Shown here: one piece after another, positions 8,191-52,772 of the stretch | Layout of the letters: every line of letters begins with the position of its first letter | Numbering within the stretch: position 1 is the stretch's first letter | NCBI GenBank assembly: GCA_902792555.1 | Contig: CADAZW010000003.1 | Location: forward strand, 28,030-92,029 | DNA from: an uncultured Bacteroidales bacterium | Lineage (GTDB): Bacteria > Bacteroidota > Bacteroidia > Bacteroidales > Bacteroidaceae | Length of the DNA: 64,000 nucleotides | Direction: 5' to 3' | Notes under the pieces: generated by a model | Databases searched by the model: none | What the model saw: the letters and a program-made list of their open reading frames with translations, nothing else | What the model was told of the DNA's origin: nothing | Position numbers and translations under genes: made by a program

Positions 8191-8229
8191 CGTCGTACAA
8201 TTTTCCGAATCTAATACATAAAAACGCGG

Positions 8230-8329: not shown

Positions 8330-8560
8330 CGCAACCTTATCACAATCTCACGCAGCCCATCCGCAAACCCACGCAGCAAACCTGCGTACTGCCGCAATCT
8401 AATCACGTGCTAATGAAACCTAATCGCGTGCTGCCGCAATCTAACTGCGAACTCCCACAATCTAAACCCGTTCAAAAAAGTTTTAGTCCTGTGGAAATCA
8501 AAACTAAAAGCCTTGAAACGAAATCTAAAAGCCTTGAAACGAAATCTAATCCCGTGGAAA
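8330..8560. repeat. 21-bp tandem array A (eleven degenerate units)
   Basis: From 8330 to 8560 the DNA can be cut into eleven consecutive 21-base units with no gaps (8330, 8351, 8372, 8393, 8414, 8435, 8456, 8477, 8498, 8519, 8540). The clearest units begin CGAAATCTAA and end in CCTTGAAA or CCGTGGAAA. Units at the left are more diverged (CGCAACCTTATCAC, CGCAGCAAACCTGCG). There are no unique spacers, so this is not a CRISPR array. It lies between two minus-strand genes (secDF and the DUF2723 gene). A short ORF through it (8407-8592) is explained by the period being a multiple of three. Confidence 0.85.
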
Positions 8561-8579
8561 ACGCCAGCTCCACGGGATT
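8548..8579. repeat. Inverted repeat at the right end of array A
   Basis: AATCCCGTGGA (8548-8558) is followed ten bases later by its exact reverse complement TCCACGGGATT (8569-8579). It overlaps the last array unit and may form a hairpin. There is no T-run directly after it. Confidence 0.6.
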
Positions 8580-8756
8580 AAAACTCTTTTGAACTGGATT
8601 AGATTAAACTTAGGCAATGATTATGCAAAAGACTTCTATTCTAATCAACGCTGCTATGCAATAAACATACAACTAACGCAGTCATAATTGGCCGCATTAT
8701 GAGTAATCTGTGCCAACATCTATATCATTACCATAATTTAAGTTGAATTATCTCAT

Positions 8757-8882
8757 GAGTGCGCGTTTAGATTGCAAGAGCACGCGACTACGACGCACGA
8801 GCACGGGTTTATATCACGGGAATACGCGACAAGTGCACGGAAGCACAGCTTTCTGTAAATGCGCACATAATATATAAATAAT
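8757..8882. repeat. 21-bp periodic G+C-rich array B (about six units)
   Basis: Six consecutive 21-base segments start at 8757, 8778, 8799, 8820, 8841 and 8862. The first four share the pattern GAGCACGCG or GAGCACGGG followed by a more variable half. The sequence differs from array A but the period is the same. It lies between array A and the secDF terminator. Confidence 0.65.
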
Positions 8883-23887: not shown

Positions 23888-24040
23888 GATTAGCCATTTT
23901 TATTTCACAATTTGACAATTTACTATTTCACAATTTAGCCATGTCCGAGTCCAACGGTCTAAGCCCCCAAACCATCTAAAAGGGAGTGTAAAGTTCAACG
24001 GCCTGCCAAATTGTAATTTGTAAATTGTCTAATTGTCAAA

Positions 24041-26212
<2,172 letters not shown>

Positions 26213-26220
26213 GATATTTA

Positions 26221-26281
26221 TTTACTATTTAACTAATTACAATTTACAATTTATGTACAATTTAATTATTTAACAATTTAC
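26221..26281. repeat. ACAATTT heptamer repeats, left flank of the four-helix-bundle gene
   Basis: A+T-rich stretch with ACAATTT units (two adjacent, further copies spaced), directly between the mutB start and the four-helix-bundle stop. The region at 26657-26717 carries the same heptamer in inverted orientation (AAATTGT). Confidence 0.65.
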
Positions 26282-26656: not shown

Positions 26657-26717
26657 AAACTACAGTAAATAGCTAAATTGTAAATCAATTGTACCTTGTA
26701 AATTGTGAAATTGTAAA
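26657..26717. repeat. AAATTGT heptamer repeats, right flank of the four-helix-bundle gene
   Basis: Copies of AAATTGT, alternating with short variants, between the four-helix-bundle start and the mutA stop. They mirror the tract at 26221-26281 in orientation. Confidence 0.65.
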
Positions 26718-28565
26718 TTAAACAATTCCTAACTTAGCGTTAAACTCTTTGAGTGTCTGGAGCTGGTCCACACGCACATGGATAAAGTTCTCTATTCCGG
26801 CAGCCTTGAGGTCGTCGCTGCATGCGGGGGCACCGGCAATGACGAACAGGGCGCTGTCGCCCACGGCCTTGAAGGCTGGCACGCCGTACTCAGCATACTC
26901 ATCGTCGCTGGAGCAGAGCACCACGATGTCGGCACCGGCCTTGCGAGCTGCCTCGGCACCTGCCTCCACGCTCTCAAAGCCGAGGTTGTCAATCACCTTG
27001 TAGCCTGCGGCAGCAAGGAAGTTGCAGCTGAACTGGGCGCGGGCCTGACGCATGGCCAGGTTGCCGATGGTGAGCATAAATGCCACGGGCACCTTCGCGG
27101 CCTGCTCGGTCTTGAGGCGCAGAGCCTCGAAGTCGCTGGCCAGACGGGTGGGCTTGATGGCGGGTATGTCGGCATCGTCCTGATGCTTGCATGCGCAGCA
27201 GCACTCCATCGGCGTCTTGCCCTCGCTCTTCTCGGTGAAGTTGGGGAACTGGTTGGTGCCGAGGATAAACTCCTTGCGCTTGCCGGCATTGGCATGACGC
27301 TGCTTGTTGGTCTCGTTGATGGCCTCCTGAATCTTACCCTCCTGGGTAGCCTTGAGGAAACCGCCCTCCTCCTCCACGCTGAGGAAGAGCTTCCAGGCCT
27401 GCTCGGCCAGGGCGTCGGTGAGGTGCTCGATGAAGTAGCTGCCACCGGCCACGTCCACAATCTTGTTGAAGTGGCACTCCTCCTTAAGCAGGAGCTGCTG
27501 GTTGCGGGCTATGCGCTCGGCAAAGTCGGTGGGCACCTCAAAGGTCTCATCGAAGGGAGTAACCACGATACTCTCCACTCCGGCCAGGGCGGCAGACATG
27601 GTCTCCGTCTGGGTGCGCAGCATGTTGACATAGCTGTCGAAGAGGGTGAGGTTGAAAGTGGTAGTGCTGGCACATACGTGCATCTTGGCGCTCTCCTTGC
27701 ACTCGGTGTACTGGCTCACGATCTGAGCCCACAGCATGCGGGCGGCGCGGAACTTGGCAATCTCCATGAAGTAAACGCCGTTGATACCCATATTGAACTT
27801 GATGTTCTGGGCAGCCTGCTCAGCAGGCACGCCGGCGTCAACCAGCTGCTGCAGATACTCGTTGCCCCAAGCCAGGGCGTAGCCGAGCTCCTGATAGCTG
27901 AACGCACCGCTGTCGGTAAGCCTGAAGGCATTGACGGCGATGGCGCGGAACTTGGGATAGTCCTTGAGAGCCTCAATCATGGCCTTGCCCTCGCCCACCA
28001 GGGCGGAGGTGTCCTTACCCTTGACGAGCATGCGCTCAATGGGATCGAAGCTGATGGATCCGCAGATGTTGGCCTTGTCGTAGCCCTTCTTGTCGAAGTA
28101 GTCGGCCAGCAGCTTAGCCAGCTCTACGGCGTGGCGCTGACAGGTCTTGAAGTTGAGCTCTATGCAATCGGCATAGATACCGCTGAGCAGGGTCTCGATG
28201 AACTCAGCGCTCAGCTTGTCGGCAGGCACGCAGAATCCCAGCGAGTCGATGCCCTTGTTGAGAATGTCAAGAGCCTTGGCGTTAGCCTCCTTGGCATCTT
28301 CCACACAGATGTTCTGACGTACGAACCATGTGTTCTCGTCAGCCTTGTTGCCGCGCACATAGGGAAATTCGCCGGGCAGGGCATTCATCAGGGGGAGGTC
28401 CTTAACGTCCTCCTGCTGATAGAACGGCTGCACGCTGAATCCCTCATTGGTGCGCCACACCATCTTCTTGTTGAAATCGGCGCCCTTCAGGTCCACCTGG
28501 ATCTTATCCAGCCATTCCTGCTTGCTAACGGGCGCGAAATCAGAAAAAAGTTTCTTTTGTTCCAT
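26718..28565 (-). CDS. mutA: methylmalonyl-CoA mutase small (non-catalytic) subunit
   Basis: Partner of MutB in the heterodimeric bacterial mutase. Start MEQKKLFSDFAPVSKQEW is chosen because family members begin with this block; the open frame upstream runs through palindromic intergenic repeats. The protein (615 aa) has the same barrel plus Rossmann layout as MutB, but the C-terminal domain lacks the DxHxxG cobalamin motif (it reads FMLTIGNLAMRQARAQF at the matching place), as expected for the small subunit. It is the first gene of the mut group. No perfect TAnnTTTG box is seen; the closest is TAACTTCG on the minus strand at 28712-28719. Confidence 0.95.
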   Translation of the reverse strand: MEQKKLFSDFAPVSKQEWLDKIQVDLKGADFNKKMVWRTNEGFSVQPFYQQEDVKDLPLMNALPGEFPYVRGNKADENTWFVRQNICVEDAKEANAKALDILNKGIDSLGFCVPADKLSAEFIETLLSGIYADCIELNFKTCQRHAVELAKLLADYFDKKGYDKANICGSISFDPIERMLVKGKDTSALVGEGKAMIEALKDYPKFRAIAVNAFRLTDSGAFSYQELGYALAWGNEYLQQLVDAGVPAEQAAQNIKFNMGINGVYFMEIAKFRAARMLWAQIVSQYTECKESAKMHVCASTTTFNLTLFDSYVNMLRTQTETMSAALAGVESIVVTPFDETFEVPTDFAERIARNQQLLLKEECHFNKIVDVAGGSYFIEHLTDALAEQAWKLFLSVEEEGGFLKATQEGKIQEAINETNKQRHANAGKRKEFILGTNQFPNFTEKSEGKTPMECCCACKHQDDADIPAIKPTRLASDFEALRLKTEQAAKVPVAFMLTIGNLAMRQARAQFSCNFLAAAGYKVIDNLGFESVEAGAEAARKAGADIVVLCSSDDEYAEYGVPAFKAVGDSALFVIAGAPACSDDLKAAGIENFIHVRVDQLQTLKEFNAKLGIV

Positions 28566-28720: not shown

Positions 28721-28980
28721 GCATTTTTTTGTTCCCCACCTTATATATATAGTGAAAAAAGAAATATTATGCACTTTGGCCGCACATTATGACCTCCCCC
28801 GGCGCAGAAATGCGCCTGCGCGGCAGATAGTCCACACAAGGCACAGCCCCCGTTGCACGGCCGCCGATTTTAATCTCGCGAACACAGAAAACAGTGCCGA
28901 CCTTATCAAATTTTGCATCGGGGGCAGAAATTTTACACCCGGGTACAGCACTATTACTCCCGAGCGTAGCAGTTTTTGTG

Positions 28981-29215
28981 CCGAGCTCGCTGAAATTAAA
29001 GCCGTGCTCGCTGAATTTAAACGCGAGGAAATTGAAAATAAATCGCGATTAAATTTCCGTTTATTCGCGATTAAATTTCCGTTTGTTCGCGATTAAATTT
29101 CCGTTTGTTCGCGATTAAAATTCAACTTCTGCGCAACTAAATTCAGGCTCTACGCGACTAAATTCAGGCTCTGCGCGACAAAAATCAGGCTCTGCGCGAC
29201 GAAATCCGGCGAGCT
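28981..29215. repeat. 21/22-bp tandem array C (eleven units)
   Basis: Eleven consecutive units start at 28981, 29002, 29023 (21 bases each), 29044, 29066, 29088, 29110 (22 bases each), 29132, 29153, 29174 and 29195 (21 bases each). Central units read CGCGATTAAATTTCCGTTTG; later ones read CGCGACTAAATTCAGGCTCTG. The switch between 21 and 22 bases argues against coding. The core is homologous to the array at 50600-50704 in the same orientation and to array A in reverse complement. It lies between divergent mutA and the envelope protein gene. Confidence 0.88.
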
Positions 29216-29363
29216 CGGAGATTGGCTTTCTCCACTCAGCATCAGGATTTGCGGGCACGCTCTCTGTTTGGCTCCGCAGGGGCGCAAATCCTCTGCCGCC
29301 GGACTAAAGACTTCTTTCGTCAGAAAAACACTCCTTTTTTCTCCGCTTTTATGGAAATCGTCT

Positions 29364-29407: not shown

Positions 29408-32047
29408 ATGAAAAGAGCACTCCTCACCCTATTGGCCGGAGCCTTCGCGCTCGTCTCTGCCACGGCATCAGCGCGCCCCGAAGCCGCCGAGACCACCGAC
29501 AGCGCCGCCCTCAGGCGCATGGCCCTGTTTGCCGGCAACATGCTGACCTACAACAACAATTTCACCCAGGAGAAAGTATATCTGCACCTCGACAACAACG
29601 GCTACATTGCCGGCGAGCACCTGTGGTTTAAGGCCTACGTCTTCAAGGCCGCCAGCCTACTGCCCACCGACATGAGCAAGGTGCTCTATGTGGAGCTGCT
29701 CAACCCCGACGGTCAGCTGGTGGAGCGCAAGACACTGCGAGTGGACAACGGCCGCACTTACGGCGACTTCGACCTCAACCCCACGGAGTGCCATCAGGGA
29801 TTCTACGAGCTGCGAGCCTACACCCGCGCCATGCTAAACTGGGACCAGGCCTTCATTTACTCACGCGTCATACCCATCTTTGAGCAACCCAAGGACACCG
29901 TCAACTTCACGGGCATGGTGCTCCACGAATACGACTACGACCCCAACCCCGGCCCCGAGACACGCCCTGCGCCCGAGCCGATGGCCACCGACGGCACACT
30001 GGCCTCTAAAGACCTCATGCTTACCTTCTACCCCGAGGGAGGCCACATCACCCGCGGCGTACCCTCACGCGTGGCCTACAAGCTCACCGACCGCCAAGGG
30101 CTGCCTGCCGACTACGCTCTCAGCATCCATAGCGACGACGGCCAGACCATAGCGGAGTCCTACGTTCTCCACGATGGAATGGGCGATTTTCAATTGCCTG
30201 CCACGTGGACCGGCGGCTATGCCGAGGTTAAGACCGAGGCCGACGGCAGCGTACGGTTCAACCTGCCCTCGCCGCGCCTGGAGGGCTGCGACATCAGCAC
30301 CACCTGCTCCAGCAGCAATGGGCTCGACATCACCTTGCGCCCCTCGCAGGGCATGACGGGGCGCACGCTGGGCCTCAGCGTGACGTGCCGCGGCACGCTA
30401 CTCTACTTCAACACCGTCACTCCCGACCATGAGACGGAGATAAACATCCCCAACGGCAAACTGCGCGATGGAATCGCCCAAATCACCCTCTTCACCGCCG
30501 AGGGCCTGGTGCTCAGCGAGAGGCTGGTATGGGTGGAGCCCCACAAGGCAGCGCCAAAGATGGAGATCAGGCAAAACCAAGAGGTCTATCATCCCTTCCA
30601 GCCCGCAGTGCTCGACATCAGCCTCCACGACAGCGAAGGCCAGCCCCTGCAGGCCGACTTCTCGCTGGCCGTACGCGATGCCGCTACCGAGGTGGGCCCC
30701 GACAGCCACGGGCTACGGGTGGAGATGCTGCTCAGCTCAGAGCTCAAAGGCTATATCCACAATCCCGACTACTACTTTGAATCCGCCGACGAGGCTCACC
30801 GCCAGGCCCTCGACCTGCTGCTGATGGTGCAGGGCTGGCGCAGATACCAATGGCAGGAGATGAGCGGCGTGGAGCCTTTCCAACTGAAGCAACCCGCCGA
30901 GGACGGCCTCACCCTCATCGGCACCCTAAGCAGCACCAAAGCCGCCGAGCACAGCCTGGAGCGCGAGGGGAGCCTGGACGTCAACTTTCTGATGCAGACC
31001 ATCAACGGCACCAAGGTCTTCAGCGTACAGACCGACAGCATCGGCCGCTTCGCCGTGCAGCTGCCTGACTTCAACGACGACGCCCCCACCGTGATGACCG
31101 TGACCAACAATAAGGATAAGCGCGTATATACCCATTTCATACTCGACCGCGACTTCGCCCCCGCTGCCATGCCCTACGAGCCACTGCAGACAGCCTCCAG
31201 CGTGGCTATCATGGAGAGCCGCGTCGATGCGCTGGCACACGAGCCCGCCACCTTTGAGTGGCAGGACACTATTCCCGACCAAGTCTCGCGACTCATCCAA
31301 CTTGGCGAAGTAACCGTGAAGGGCAAGAAGAGGCCGGGCTACAATCCCGGAGCCCGATTCACATGGATGGGCGGCGAGAGCGCCACCAAAGGCAGCGCCG
31401 CTATCTTCTACAACCTGCGCAACGAGCTCGACCGCTACCTCGACCAAGGCGAGGAAGTACCCGTGGTGTGGGAGTGGCTCTCGAAGAACAACAAAAATTT
31501 CTACTACGACATCACCACCGGCGAGATGTGGTACAGGGGCCGCCAAGTGGTGGTAGTGGTGGACAACAACTTCCCCGGCGCATCGATGACCGCTGCCTAT
31601 CCCACTGAGGGCGAAGCCCTGACAGGCAGCAACTATGCCATGAACCGGTTTCAGTCGCTCAGCATAGTGGATAACGAGGCTGTGGCCAGCAACATACTGC
31701 AGCACACCCTGCGCGATGCCAACAACCCCATGCCCAGCGCCCGCGTAGTGTTCTTCCTCTACACCCGCACCGACATGCGCGAGCCTAACAGCTACCGCCG
31801 CGGCACCCGATGGATCAACCTCCACGGATACTCGCTCTGCACCGAGTTCTACAGTCCCGACTACCGCCAGCAGGACATTCCCACCGACACTGACCACCGC
31901 CGCACCCTCTATTGGAATCCGTCGCTCGTCACCTCTCCTGAAGGCAAGGCCCAAGTCATCTTCTACACCAGCTCGCGCCCCGACGAGCGACTGCATATCA
32001 ATGCGCAGGGCATAGCCGTCAACGGACAGATGGTGGAAGGAAAATAA
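29408..32047 (+). CDS. large exported envelope protein (alpha-2-macroglobulin MG2-like / carboxypeptidase-like domains)
   Basis: The 879-aa protein starts with a signal peptide (MKRALLTLLAGAFALVSATASA). The first domain has EKVYLHLDNNGYIAGEHLWF at residues about 55-75, a motif of Bacteroidetes MG2-like envelope proteins that often precede or resemble TonB-receptor plug proteins. Several beta-sandwich repeats follow. Near residues 630-720 lies a weak plug-like segment (LGEVTVKGKKRPGYNPG), and the C-terminus is beta-rich (LYWNPSLVTSPEGKAQVIFY). No enzyme motif is seen. It stands upstream of the cobalamin riboswitch and has its own promoter, so it may not belong to the B12 set. The function is unknown; it is probably a periplasmic or outer-membrane-associated protein. 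Confidence 0.75.
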   Translation: MKRALLTLLAGAFALVSATASARPEAAETTDSAALRRMALFAGNMLTYNNNFTQEKVYLHLDNNGYIAGEHLWFKAYVFKAASLLPTDMSKVLYVELLNPDGQLVERKTLRVDNGRTYGDFDLNPTECHQGFYELRAYTRAMLNWDQAFIYSRVIPIFEQPKDTVNFTGMVLHEYDYDPNPGPETRPAPEPMATDGTLASKDLMLTFYPEGGHITRGVPSRVAYKLTDRQGLPADYALSIHSDDGQTIAESYVLHDGMGDFQLPATWTGGYAEVKTEADGSVRFNLPSPRLEGCDISTTCSSSNGLDITLRPSQGMTGRTLGLSVTCRGTLLYFNTVTPDHETEINIPNGKLRDGIAQITLFTAEGLVLSERLVWVEPHKAAPKMEIRQNQEVYHPFQPAVLDISLHDSEGQPLQADFSLAVRDAATEVGPDSHGLRVEMLLSSELKGYIHNPDYYFESADEAHRQALDLLLMVQGWRRYQWQEMSGVEPFQLKQPAEDGLTLIGTLSSTKAAEHSLEREGSLDVNFLMQTINGTKVFSVQTDSIGRFAVQLPDFNDDAPTVMTVTNNKDKRVYTHFILDRDFAPAAMPYEPLQTASSVAIMESRVDALAHEPATFEWQDTIPDQVSRLIQLGEVTVKGKKRPGYNPGARFTWMGGESATKGSAAIFYNLRNELDRYLDQGEEVPVVWEWLSKNNKNFYYDITTGEMWYRGRQVVVVVDNNFPGASMTAAYPTEGEALTGSNYAMNRFQSLSIVDNEAVASNILQHTLRDANNPMPSARVVFFLYTRTDMREPNSYRRGTRWINLHGYSLCTEFYSPDYRQQDIPTDTDHRRTLYWNPSLVTSPEGKAQVIFYTSSRPDERLHINAQGIAVNGQMVEGK

Positions 32048-32101
32048 CACCCTGTTTTTACAAAAAACCGCACGGAAATACTCTGTTACAGAAATTTTTA
32101 C

Positions 32102-32109
32102 TAATTTTG
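32102..32109 (+). promoter_or_regulatory. Bacteroidetes -7 promoter box for the riboswitch-btu operon
   Basis: TAATTTTG matches TAnnTTTG and lies just upstream of the riboswitch, so transcription would start at its 5' edge. Confidence 0.55.
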
Positions 32110-32116
32110 CCGCGTC

Positions 32117-32295
32117 AAGGTTTGTACGGATGCTCTGCGCATCCATGCAATTAAAAGGGAACGGGGTGAAAATCCCCGACAGTCCCGCTGCTGTAAGCTC
32201 CATTTGTTGCTTCGCCCGCATGACATGCCACTGAGCCCCAAAAGCTTGGGAAGGCGCGAGACGCTGGGAGCAAGTCAGAAGACCTGCCTTGGTGA
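32117..32295 (+). ncRNA. Cobalamin riboswitch (B12 element)
   Basis: The leader contains the conserved cobalamin-aptamer blocks in order: a 5' stem, AAAAGGGAACGGGGTGAAAA with its closing CCCCGACAG, CCCGCTGCTGTAA, a variable arm, and the B12 box AAGTCAGAAGACCTGCC (about 32272-32288). It lies directly before a btuB-type receptor gene. By analogy, adenosylcobalamin binding should reduce expression of btuBGF. The boundaries are approximate. Confidence 0.93.
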
Positions 32296-32324
32296 AGACT
32301 ATCCACGGCCTCGAGGAAAGGCCG

Positions 32325-36632: not shown

Positions 36633-36657
36633 GGATTAGGAAACAGCGCTATGCGAA

Positions 36658-36699
36658 AGCATACGGATATATATACAAAGCATACGGATATTTATACGA
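36658..36699. repeat. Two 21-bp direct repeats after btuF
   Basis: AGCATACGGATATATATACAA (36658-36678) is followed directly by a near-identical 21-base copy (36679-36699). The sequence is unrelated to the other arrays but has the same period. The rest of 36633-36960 holds the near-palindrome CCGGCTAACGTGTTAACCGG (36713-36732) and the next promoter. Confidence 0.7.
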
Positions 36700-36875
36700 A
36701 GCTATGAGCTGACCGGCTAACGTGTTAACCGGTTGCCTGCCTCTCAACCTTTGCTTTCGTCCCCGATTGATTTCCCGTTAACTTTATTTCTTCTACTTCT
36801 GCCTGCTTTTGGACTTTTCGCACAACAAAAGCAGTTTTTTGCTATATAATTATACGGTTATACATAAATATTTTC

Positions 36876-36883
36876 TAACTTTG
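36876..36883 (+). promoter_or_regulatory. Bacteroidetes -7 promoter box for the papain-like protein
   Basis: TAACTTTG matches TAnnTTTG, 78 bases before the ATG. No clear -33 element. Confidence 0.5.
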
Positions 36884-36960
36884 TATGCCATTTTTGAGCG
36901 TTTGCGTAAACAGACCTTTGCGACACAACATAAACAAACGAAATATTATATTGACTTAGA

Positions 36961-45097: not shown

Positions 45098-48000
45098 ATG
45101 AGAAAATTAATAATATTGCTCGCCTTAATCGTCAATTGTCAATTATCAATTGTCAACGGCCAAACCTGGCATGACGCTAATCAAGGCGGCATCCTGTTCG
45201 GCCAAGGCTGGACCTCTGAGATAGGCTCTACCTATCAGCGTTTTCCCGCCAGCGCTCAAAGCAAGGTGCCAAGCGGTGTATGGAACCTGTCGAAGAACAC
45301 GGCAGGACTCAACGTGCGCTTCACCACCAATGCCAAGACCATCTACGTTAAGTACACTCTCACTGGCAGCGCACTGAGCTACCATAACATGCCTGTTACG
45401 CTGCAGAGCGGCGTTGACCTCTATTGGAGACAGCAGGGCGGCCAGTGGCACTGGGTAAGCCAGCAGAAGAAATTCTCCTTCAACGGTCAGAATGCCACAT
45501 ACACCTATTCCGACCTCAGCCCCGCCTCCTCCGACGATGGCAGCGACCCTGAGTATATGCTCTACTTCCCCATGTACAATGGAGTCAGCGCCATGAGCGT
45601 AGGCGTGGATCAAGGCTGCACTTTTGAGTACGTGAGCGTACCAGCGGACGACAAGCCCATCGTGGCCTATGGCACCTCCATCTGCCAGGGCTGTTCGGCC
45701 AGTCGTCCGGGCATGGCATGGACCAGCATCATTAGCCGTGAGCTGGAGAGCAATGTCATCAACCTAGGCTTCTCCGGTAGCGCATTTATGGAGAGCGGGG
45801 TCTTCGATATGCTGGCCGAGCTCAAGCAGGCCAAGCTCTTCATTATCGACGCCATACCCAACATCAAGAGTTCGCCGGGCTCCATAGTCAACAGCACACT
45901 CAGCGGAGTAAAGAAACTGCGCGCCGTGAGCGACGCCCCCATCCTGCTGGTAGAGAGCTTCGGCAACTCCGACAAGGTGATGTCGCCCAGCGAGGACAAC
46001 ATCGACTCCAAGGGCAATGCCAAGCTTAAGGAAGCCTTTGAGGAAATAGAATACGAAGGCATTCGCAACGTCTTCTACCTCACCGAGGAGGAGATTGGCG
46101 CCACCGAGGATGCCATGATTGAGGGCACCCACCCCAATGACATCGGCATGCGTGAATACGCCGATGCCTATATTGAGAAAATCAACTACATCATAGCTAA
46201 CCCCGACACCGCTAACGGCGGCGAAGGCCTTCCCATCGACACACTGGTGCGCGAGACACGCCATGAACTTAAGAAATGGCACTTCGGCAGCAATCCCGGC
46301 GAGACGCCTGAAACCCTGAAAGTGAAAATCGACCAGCTGCTAACCGCTGCCCAGGAGGCCATTGACAGCCACTCATGCGATGCCCAGTGCGAAGGGCTCA
46401 TGGCCGACATCCGCTCCACCATGGAGGAGATACGCACCACCCGCAACCCCATGGAGGAAGGCTACTACTATATCGTGAGCGCCTTCGACGGATTCTATGA
46501 CACCAAGGGCTACGAGATGGCCATGTACACCAAGGGCACTGCCCTCAACTGGGCCAAGCTCGACTCCCTCAGCACCGCCTACGTCTATAAGATAACCGAA
46601 CAGGCCGACGGCAACTGGGCCATCCAGAACTGCGCCACCGCCACCTATATCAACACAGCTGGCAACGGACAGTCGCTCACCATGAGCAACAAGTTGCTCA
46701 CCAATCAGGTCATCACTCCTGAAACCGACTGGTCGGCACGCTTCCGCATCTGCAATACGGCCAACAGTCTGCCCTACATACCCAACAGCAACTACTTCGG
46801 CTCTGCCGACGGTGCCGACGTGTTCAACATGTCCACATCCAGCTACTCCGCCACTGACCCCACCAGCCAGGCCTACGGATGGTACACCTGGTATCTGCGC
46901 GCTGTCACCGACACCGACGTGCTTGACGAGATACTGCGCACCATGAAGACCGAGGAGACCATCGAGCTGGAGGCTGCCATAGCCGAGGCTGAGGAAGTGA
47001 TAGATATGGCCATGGCGCTACAGGCCGACGAGAACACCAAGCTCATCACCGAGGCCAACGACAACGACCCCGCCCATTGCCAGTTTTCCAGCAATGCTAA
47101 GATGCCCGAGAACACCCGCGTCTGGGGATACTACCGCAACCTCCTTGACGGCGACCGCAGCACATTCTTCATCACCATCCACGACCGCACCTATGGCGAG
47201 CCCACCGAGCCGCACTATCTGCAAGTGGATCTCCGCGACAATCCCGTCGACGCCTTCATCTTCCGCTACGGACGCAGCAGCAGCTGGCCCACATTCTCAT
47301 GGAAGGACGTAACAGTGCTAGCCTCCAACGATGGCGAGCAATGGACCGAGATAACCGAACTCTCCGGACTGCCTTCCTCCGACACCTACGATTCGCCCAT
47401 CATCAAGCTTGGAAAGACCTATCGACACCTGCGCTTCTCCGTCAATGCCACAGAGGGCAACCTGAAAATCGGTGCCGGCCCGGCCTTTGCCATCGGCGAA
47501 TTTCAGATGTATCCCGTAGTGTCGGCAGATGACGCTCCATTCCTCACCAACACTACAGTAAACATCAAGACAAGAGCACTGCAGACAGCCATGATTGAAG
47601 CAGCGCAGATAGTAGAAGCCAACACTGCGACAGCCGACTATATCGCCCTCTTCAGGCGAGTTACAAAGGACGTTGTTGACGCCATCAATGGCGAGACATC
47701 CGAGTCAATAGCCCTCGACAGCCTTATCACAGCCGCCGAACAAGCATATCTCCTCGCATATGGCGACGATGCAGTTGCCGACGACAGCCAGAAGCTTGTC
47801 ACCGAGGCCGACGACAACGACCCGGAGCACTGCCAGTACTTCTGCAACTGCCCCTATCCCAACAATAAGTACGCCAACCTCATCGACGGCAATCTCAACT
47901 CCTACTTCTTCTCGCTCCACAACAAGAACCACGGCACCCCGCCCGAAGGCTACCACTTCCTGCAGGTAGACCTCAAGGACAATGCCGCCGACGCCATTGT

Positions 48001-50328: not shown

Positions 50329-50433
50329 AGCGTATGCGTGGAGCATCTGCGCGCACGCGAGGACCGACTGCGCACGCGCTAAACAAGAGCACGTACTCGT
50401 GTATTTTTATTGCGTGCTCCCGTAATTTAAGAA
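50329..50433. repeat. 21-bp periodic G+C-rich array D (five units)
   Basis: Five 21-base segments start at 50329, 50350, 50371, 50392 and 50413. They share GCGYRYRCGCG-like left halves (GAGCGTATGCGT, GCGCGCACGCGA, GCGCACGCGC, ACGTACTCGTG, GCGTGCTCCCG). It resembles array B in composition and period. Confidence 0.6.
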
Positions 50434-50599
50434 TGTGAAATTATCAAACTCAAAAATTAAGCTTATTATAAAATCCTTAATTTCGTTATTTGCTTGTAAA
50501 AAAATTTGTTAAATCACTATCAAGTCTAACAAATCTATCACTAAAAAGATGTCATACTTCGCTTATAATATTCCTAATTTCGTAGAGATTTTATTTAAT

Positions 50600-50704
50600 C
50601 GCGCAGAGGCGTACAGTTTCGGCGCGATTAGATTTGACTTTGGCGCGATTAGATTTCGTTTCGGCGCGATTAGATTTCGTGAGCACGCAAAAAAATTGTG
50701 TGAG
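50600..50704. repeat. 21-bp tandem array E (three clear units, two diverged)
   Basis: Units start at 50600, 50621, 50642, 50663 and 50684. The middle three read GGCGCGATTAGATTT with variable last six bases. GATTAGATTTCGTTTC (50647-50662) is the exact reverse complement of 8536-8551 in array A. The short frame through it (FGAIRF repeats) is a by-product of the period. The remaining DNA to the tRNA gene shows no gene. Confidence 0.85.
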
Positions 50705-50897
50705 TATGGGGTTCCGGCGTGCGAGATTGCGATTGAGAGGCGGAAGGACAGAACTTGAGTGCGGGAATTTGCGGTTAGATTATTGTGGATGTCTGGCTAT
50801 AGTTACCAGGAGGCGCTGTCCCACAAAGGGTCTGGCGCGACAGAAATAAATTGCCTATGGGAGTACGCCACACGGCGAGGCTGACTGTTGCGCAGCA

Positions 50898-50939
50898 TAA
50901 AAAAAGAGAAAGAACCACACCTTTTGGCGTGATTCTTTC
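50898..50939 (-). terminator. Rho-independent terminator of tRNA-Cys
   Basis: A 14-bp stem with two G-U pairs (50908-50921 with 50926-50939) encloses a four-base loop. On the minus strand it is followed by TCTTTTTTT, 12 bases beyond the tRNA end. Confidence 0.85.
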
Positions 50940-52644: not shown

Positions 52645-52772
52645 TTGAAGAATGGAAAAATGGAAGTCGCCTCCGGACTTGGCTAAACCTCAAATCTCAA
52701 AAGGAAAGTTGAAGAATTGAAAAATGGAAGTTGCCTCCGGACTTGGCTAAATCTCAAACCTCAAATCTCAAA
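52645..52772. repeat. Tandem 64-bp direct repeat between tilS and the metalloprotease gene
   Basis: Copies at 52645-52708 and 52709-52772 share TTGAAGAATKGAAAAATGGA, GCCTCCGGACTTGGCTAAA and CTCAAAT heptamers. They combine the GAATTGAA motif of 18816-18861 with the CTCAAAC heptamer of the RNase H gene. Confidence 0.8.

Follow-up and report, generated by a model that had tools for sequence, protein, structure and literature searches.

Intergenic tandem arrays with a period of two helical turns in an uncultured Bacteroidales bacterium and other Bacteroidaceae

Three intergenic regions in a 64,000-nucleotide stretch from the genome of an uncultured Bacteroidales bacterium of the rumen (contig CADAZW010000003.1; the whole stretch is called the window below) are built of short units set head to tail. 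They raise the question of what such rows are: accidents of composition, members of a described repeat class, or sites whose spacing is kept for a reason. The regions, named arrays A, C and E, had been singled out in an initial annotation made from the letters of the window.

Periodicity and anatomy of arrays A, C and E

Self-matches of the three arrays were counted at successive lags, with 400 dinucleotide shuffles as background. None of the 400 shuffles scored as high as arrays A, C and E at lag 21, or as array C at lag 22, and lags 18-20 and 23-24 stayed within |z| <= 1.7. The 21-base periodicity first claimed for these regions was thus upheld, and the objection that shuffled DNA might give equally long 21-base runs fell away, the shuffles falling short. 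For comparison, three further gaps between genes in the window were tested: two gave no lag-21 signal (z -1.6 and 0.3), and region 36633-36960 displayed a weak one (z 2.6).

The finer details given at first were also recovered. The four 22-base units of array C start at 29043, 29065, 29087 and 29109; cores lie at 8540 in A, at 50644 and 50665 in E, and at 29044, 29066 and 29088 in C; and the 16-mer at 8536-8551 is the exact reverse complement of 50647-50662, with no third copy in the window. As to array limits, the periodic stretches are real, yet their first-given extents (8330-8560, 28981-29215 and 50600-50704) were too short, since a degenerate 21-base phase continues outside them. Beyond array E, at 50705-50900, the shuffle test gave no lag-21 signal (z 0.4). 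Units of opposite orientation were located at about 8573-8607 and 8762-8775 in array A and at about 50590 in array E; arrays A and E each consist of two arms facing away from a centre. The features are as follows.

8330-8560, minus strand: conserved arm of array A, 21-bp units with cores on the minus strand (128 self-matches at lag 21 against 57.0 in shuffles, z 10.6)
8561-8860, plus strand: opposite, degenerate arm of array A (lag 21, z 3.2)
28780-28980, minus strand: degenerate left arm of array C in 21-bp phase (lag 21, z 4.0; lag 19 also z 3.0)
28981-29215, no single strand: conserved part of array C, 22-bp units from 29043 with 21-bp units on either side (120 self-matches at lag 21 against 53.8 in shuffles and 112 at lag 22 against 53.1, both z 9.5)
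29034-29057, no single strand: centre of array C, where a minus core at 29034 overlaps the plus core at 29044 at an offset of 10, an imperfect palindrome
29216-29330, plus strand: degenerate right arm of array C in 21-bp phase (lag 21, z 3.5)
50330-50589, minus strand: degenerate left arm of array E in 21-bp phase (lag 21, z 5.5 for 50330-50599; lag 23, z 3.1)
50590-50704, plus strand: reverse partner core of array E at about 50590, followed by plus cores at 50623, 50644 and 50665, centre offset 33 (for 50600-50704, 55 self-matches at lag 21 against 21.1 in shuffles, z 7.6)

An ORF was called from 29222, inside the right arm of array C; its true start is probably an ATG near 29409, since alignments with homologues from relatives begin only at about residue 26 to 89. 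The gene adjoining array C encodes methylmalonyl-CoA mutase, and a cobalamin riboswitch (Rfam RF00174, 107.3 bits; 32101-32305) lies about 3 kb from it.

The array family of the source genome

Arrays A, C and E turned out to be members of a genome-wide family, not the three loci reported at first. The core CGCGATTARATTTC, with at most one mismatch, matched 269 times in the source genome (an assembly of 2.29 Mb in 145 contigs, 80.5% complete) and the reversed-pattern control not once, which also disposed of the concern that the genome might hold no further arrays. Tandem Repeats Finder reported 39 arrays of period 21, 3 of period 42 and 5 of period 63.

Array geometry was studied in 567,254 bases of this genome (the window plus 20 and another 20 stretches, most of them chosen at core matches), which contained 50 clusters of at least two cores. 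Cores on the same strand were 21 bp apart in 94 gaps and 22 bp apart in 22, together 116 of 124. Units are therefore contiguous, as the initial annotation had stated in denying CRISPR-like spacers. In CRISPR arrays, unique spacers of matching length stand between the repeats; the present units, like CRISPR repeats, are short, partly palindromic and set in rows, but a CRISPR identity was rejected because here the unit itself recurs every 21-22 bp.

All 27 clusters with both orientations had every minus unit to the left of every plus unit, and the distance across the centre was 33 (16 clusters), 10 (9 clusters) or 54 (2 clusters), with no other value. This order and these fixed centre offsets define the array as a two-armed, outward-pointing object. 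Arrays often had several units to one side of the centre and a single partner unit to the other.

Core matches (at most one mismatch) lay outside called coding sequence in 157 of 159 cases, with intergenic bases making up only 82,846 of the 567,254; genes were codon-usage calls made in this analysis, with no annotation used. The intergenic location first reported was thereby borne out. Conservation faded outward: over 44 array sides, identity to the unit consensus, followed in 21-bp steps beginning at the last recognised unit, was 0.72, 0.52, 0.44, 0.41 and 0.39, against 0.33 for random intergenic DNA. Within neighbouring unselected units, the core was better conserved than the linker (means of about 0.79 vs 0.44 bits, computed from the position table). 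The main unit displayed no obvious dyad of its own.

Of the clusters, 21 lay in convergent gaps, 14 in codirectional and 11 in divergent ones (the 4 of 50 without two called neighbours were left out); available gaps of at least 94 bp numbered 35, 96 and 34, respectively. An apparent preference for gene 3' ends is much explained by gap length, since among gaps of at least 400 bp arrays were present in 10 of 13 convergent, 10 of 16 codirectional and 8 of 11 divergent ones.

Other repeats were recorded in the same genome. Short rows of period 7 (26 arrays), 8 (15) and 9 (22) made up 63 of the about 163 arrays reported by Tandem Repeats Finder. Such intergenic rows, often AATTGT-like, lie in the window at 23902-23936, 24007-24042, 26219-26253, 26687-26719 and 45127-45156, among others. 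That 7-9-bp repeats are common in these gaps suggests that some general repeat expansion is under way. A 64-bp tandem repeat of nearly two copies (92% matches) was found at 52645-52765, beside a tilS-like gene.

Constant spacing and changing letters among relatives

Among 60 relatives, the core of the source genome was matched 79 times in G007, a member of the same genus, and 5 times in G012; the other 58 displayed at most 4 matches each, which is the range of the reversed control. A looser two-unit pattern gave 190 matches in the source genome, 48 in G007, 7 in G012 and at most 2 in each of the other 58. Intergenic autocorrelation peaked at 21, 42, 63 and 84 in the source genome, G007 and G012, in stretches chosen at core matches. 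In blind stretches, G005 displayed a clear lag-21 signal (z 5.3) although it had no core match; its unit is GGAATGTACGTTCC plus 7 bp. Signals were weak in blind stretches of G008 (z 2.9), G004 (z 2.1) and G023 (z 1.8), and no lag-21 peak was found in those of G018 (z 1.4), G030 (z 1.2) and G027 (z 0.1).

For a wider view, 80 named Bacteroidaceae-type loci were gathered by one scan with SecDF, and an array was scored where a 63-base stretch displayed at least 36 matches at a given lag, in intergenic regions no shorter than 94 bp. Of 478 such regions, 51 passed at period 22 and 13 at period 21; each other period (15-20 and 23-30) gave 0-6 regions, and shuffles 0-0.3. At the same threshold, 34 of 128 regions of the source genome passed at 21 and 10 of 128 at 22. 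Periods 21-23 taken together were present in 70 of 479 intergenic regions (at least 94 bp) of the 80 loci, some of these being low-complexity rows. Tandem Repeats Finder reported periods 11 (16 arrays), 22 (34), 33 (3) and 44 (7) at these loci. Helical phasing, as first proposed, thus gained ground: the peaks at 11, 22, 33 and 44 across the loci, like those at 21, 42 and 63 in the source genome, are whole-turn spacings, which would let all units face the same side of the DNA.

Further Bacteroidaceae gave 7 of 91 regions at period 22 and 1 of 91 at 21; other families of the order, in 13 usable stretches, 1 of 60 at 22 and 2 of 60 at 23; the class level, 1 of 64 at 22 and 3 of 64 at 21, all three being low-complexity and from one genome; and the phylum level, 0 of 20. 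These samples from outside the family, like the weak or missing peaks in blind stretches of relatives and the three B. finegoldii matches given below, tell against a clean family-wide rule. Genomes yielding less than 9 kb were left out (7 of 20 stretches in the order-level sample, 5 of 40 in the class- and phylum-level sample). Two stretches of E. coli K-12, with 38 regions, displayed none at periods 21-23. In another Bacteroidales family, two gaps of a single contig (locus L221 of genome G054, at 8223 and 9647) held an array of period 23 (CTCACAA..TTGTCA); in two further stretches no region passed the threshold.

Unit letters varied by species: CCGACACGTGTCGG at L140, AAATCC-N6-GGATTT at L169 and GTTTC-N7-GAAAC at L134. 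They are common to one genome and its near relatives and different in more distant species. Spacing is thus held more strictly than sequence, as had been claimed: 21-22 bp was kept within the source genome and across the family while letters differed. Dyad symmetry within units reached z >= 2 in 25 of 59 arrays (mean 0.61 vs 0.51 in permuted columns, by hand count).

Three origins were discarded. Chance is ruled out by the shuffles, which gave 0-0.3 regions across the 80 loci and never reached arrays A, C and E. Coding DNA peaks at many multiples of 3, intergenic DNA at 21, 42 and 63, and the period 22 of the wider family is no multiple of 3. An artefact of metagenome assembly was rejected because the isolate genomes of B. 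xylanisolvens (L134), B. pyogenes (L147) and B. caecigallinarum (L140) carry arrays.

Bacteroides provided a well-defined unit. The pattern GTTTC-N7-GAAAC-N5-GTTTC matched 91 times in B. xylanisolvens, 83 in B. faecis, 54 in B. faecichinchillae, 85 in B. bouchesdurhonensis and 3 in B. finegoldii, these counts summing both strands so that rows are counted nearly twice; the reversed control gave 0 in all five genomes. GTTTC-N7-GAAAC-N5 is a genome-wide family in four of the five. In B. xylanisolvens the matches correspond to 18 loci, grouped by hand. With the origin not located, Rayleigh tests of placement gave p 0.09 for these and p 0.26 for 19 loci of B. bouchesdurhonensis; a 16S search meant to orient the two chromosomes returned no match in either. 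Phage and plasmid origins were rejected. The Bacteroides unit pair was present in two stretches of the viral collection and that of the source genome in none; array C had no plasmid match, and the L134 array had two partial ones, both in B. finegoldii "plasmid" records that look chromosomal.

In B. finegoldii TSDC17.2-1.1, two records each seem to hold one half of an array that B. xylanisolvens carries whole (L134, 16474-16556). The left half lies at about 1535-1590 of L373 (NZ_OY725917.1), followed after 249 bp by a gene for a site-specific integrase, and the right half at about 1500-1560 of L372 (NZ_OY725938.1), adjoining an AGE epimerase gene. The arrangement resembles what an integrative element inserted into the array would leave behind.

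Competing explanations and a possible protein-docking role

The class period is two helical turns, that is 21-22 bp, and 23 in a few cases. Spacing that outlasts letter change, whole turns and outward-pointing units are most simply explained by a protein touching its neighbours on one face of the helix. The arrays form a class that is scattered among the intergenic regions of Bacteroidaceae chromosomes, and we give about an even chance to a reading, drawn from sequence comparison, in which they would act as DNA-level multi-site platforms for a putative helix-phased protein that oligomerises. This putative sequence-specific protein would nucleate at the central dyad and then fill successive sites outward along one helix face via protein-protein contact. 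Its geometry would set the unit spacing, and unit letters would drift along with its DNA-binding surface. Local tandem duplication would refresh and homogenise units, copying would carry arrays between loci, and outer units would decay. Nucleoid architecture, insulation between transcription units and segregation are candidate roles of the bound complex, a nucleoid or partition protein having been suggested in the initial annotation. Several points count against the model: the lack of a lag-21 peak in blind stretches of G018, G027 and G030 and the weak ones in G004, G008 and G023, the near absence of the Bacteroides unit from B. finegoldii, the main unit of the source genome without an obvious dyad, the commonness of 7-9-bp rows in the gaps of that genome, and no significant chromosomal clustering.

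Orthologous loci displayed considerable turnover. At locus A, the gap between secDF and a TMEM260-like gene measured 754 bp in the source genome and 887 bp in G007, both with arrays of outward design whose linkers differ and, in G007, with locally homogenised units. The same gap was about 187 bp and free of arrays in the nearest named relative (L128), and blast matches left well under 100 bp in G009, G012 and G001. At locus C, the gap between conserved flanks was about 560 bp in the source genome and about 74 bp, without array, in G007; no array was seen in the G012 and G014 sequences of this locus. At locus E, the gap between coding matches was 1071 bp in the source genome and 1152 bp in G007; in the remaining seven members of the genus with both matches it was 243-325 bp. 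The outer 200 bp of array C had no match elsewhere in the source genome, its central part matching other places there at 73-88%. Taken together, sister species differ by the gain or loss of arrays, which do not come and go as recent exact copies having their ends in common; orthologous loci without arrays argue against an essential fixed position.

Such turnover also suits a second reading, possible if rather doubtful, which takes the arrays for selfish or neutral minisatellite or MITE-like elements in the manner of BrickBuilt: a non-autonomous element would enter a gap between genes, and its internal 21-23-bp repeats would then grow and shrink by slippage with no host protein. Presence in one species with absence from relatives, the homogenised units of G007 at locus A, and three B. 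xylanisolvens arrays (2833368, 3126156 and 4459449) with the same first unit word and last linker and differing interiors all speak for it. As decay and homogenisation of units and presence or absence of arrays were all seen, this reading has to be taken seriously as a rival. Common ends are however lacking: among 31 clusters with 700-bp flanks, similarity stopped with the array except in one pair, which went on matching at 93% for 179 bp past the units, and the outer parts of array C are unmatched. Slippage alone would account neither for periods of whole turns in species whose letters are unrelated nor for the outward polarity of all 27 mixed clusters.

BrickBuilt of Porphyromonas gingivalis (PMC4596501) is a close described counterpart, contrary to the first impression that no element like this had been described. 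As far as the available text of that report goes, it is a 23-nt, spacer-less, dispersed intergenic repeat of the same order with imperfect units and 19 elements in one genome, has a leader, a tail, IS5-like terminal repeats and predicted long stem-loops, and is described as confined to P. gingivalis and P. gulae. By that account, likeness consists in spacer-less, imperfect tandem units of about two turns, dispersed within a Bacteroidales genome and intergenic (157 of 159 core matches here). Unlike BrickBuilt as described there, the present arrays have units of 21 or 22 bp, outward-pointing arms, a far higher number, many species with different letters, and no common leader or tail segments outside the repeats (31 clusters, one pair excepted; array C). 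The terminal inverted repeat given for BrickBuilt, GAGACCTTTGCA, occurred with at most two mismatches at five places in the window, none of them at array A, C or E. In the part of the open-access literature that was covered, subscription journals being outside its scope, no recognised description of a family-wide class of 21-22-bp arrays was found.

Transcribed structured RNA, as tandem hairpins or a long hairpin serving as terminator or 3' UTR element, is improbable. Arrays A and C did fold better than every shuffle (z -4.35 and -3.55; z -2.69 for the array of L048), and within-unit covariation was 187 vs 159.4 in shuffles, a figure that is not relied on here, being biased by a choice of axis made from those very data. 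Yet array E folds weakly (z -1.84, 10 of 200 shuffles being equally good), arrays also occur in divergent gaps (8 of the 11 over 400 bp in the source genome), and an RNA would need no whole-helical-turn period. Arm-to-arm pairing found no support, mean complementarity being 9.5 within an array vs 10.3 to the arms of other arrays (30 arrays, p 0.63).

Sites of a tyrosine recombinase or integrative element, with inverted arms around a 7-bp spacer, are more improbable still. The arm-N7-arm form of the Bacteroides unit and the apparently split B. finegoldii array, with its left half 249 bp from an integrase gene, would fit; but the split is a single case, dozens of units per genome come without cargo, the unit of the source genome has no arm-spacer-arm form, and periods of 11, 33 and 44 are unexpected for such sites. 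REP elements mobilised by RAYT (a Y1 transposase) are hardly tenable: the arrays resemble REP and BIME in being short, partly palindromic, dispersed, intergenic and of high copy, but they form tandem rows at whole-turn spacing, which is not known as a REP feature, and PF01797 (RAYT), matched in 4 of 19 genus members (G003, G010, G012 and G018), had no match in the array-bearing source genome (80.5% complete), G007 and G005, which largely refutes this origin.

Plasmid iterons and ParR/parC-type centromeres offer a parallel to the protein-docking platform, being direct repeats of protein-binding sites about two turns apart. Each of those is one locus on its replicon and has a gene linked to it, whereas the present arrays stand at tens of chromosomal loci, with no linked gene found. 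Going further, we tentatively picture a satellite-like system of Bacteroidaceae, in which a family-invariant two-turn spacing persists, letters are replaced lineage by lineage, and one or more putative fast-evolving oligomerising DNA-binding proteins would use the result. If true, bacteria would have a counterpart to the way in which satellite and centromere DNA turns over in eukaryotes. Between its genes, a dominant family of the gut and rumen carries a regular two-turn repeat grammar, which similarity searches miss because letters differ between species, and the defined unit in cultivable Bacteroides makes the platform idea directly testable.
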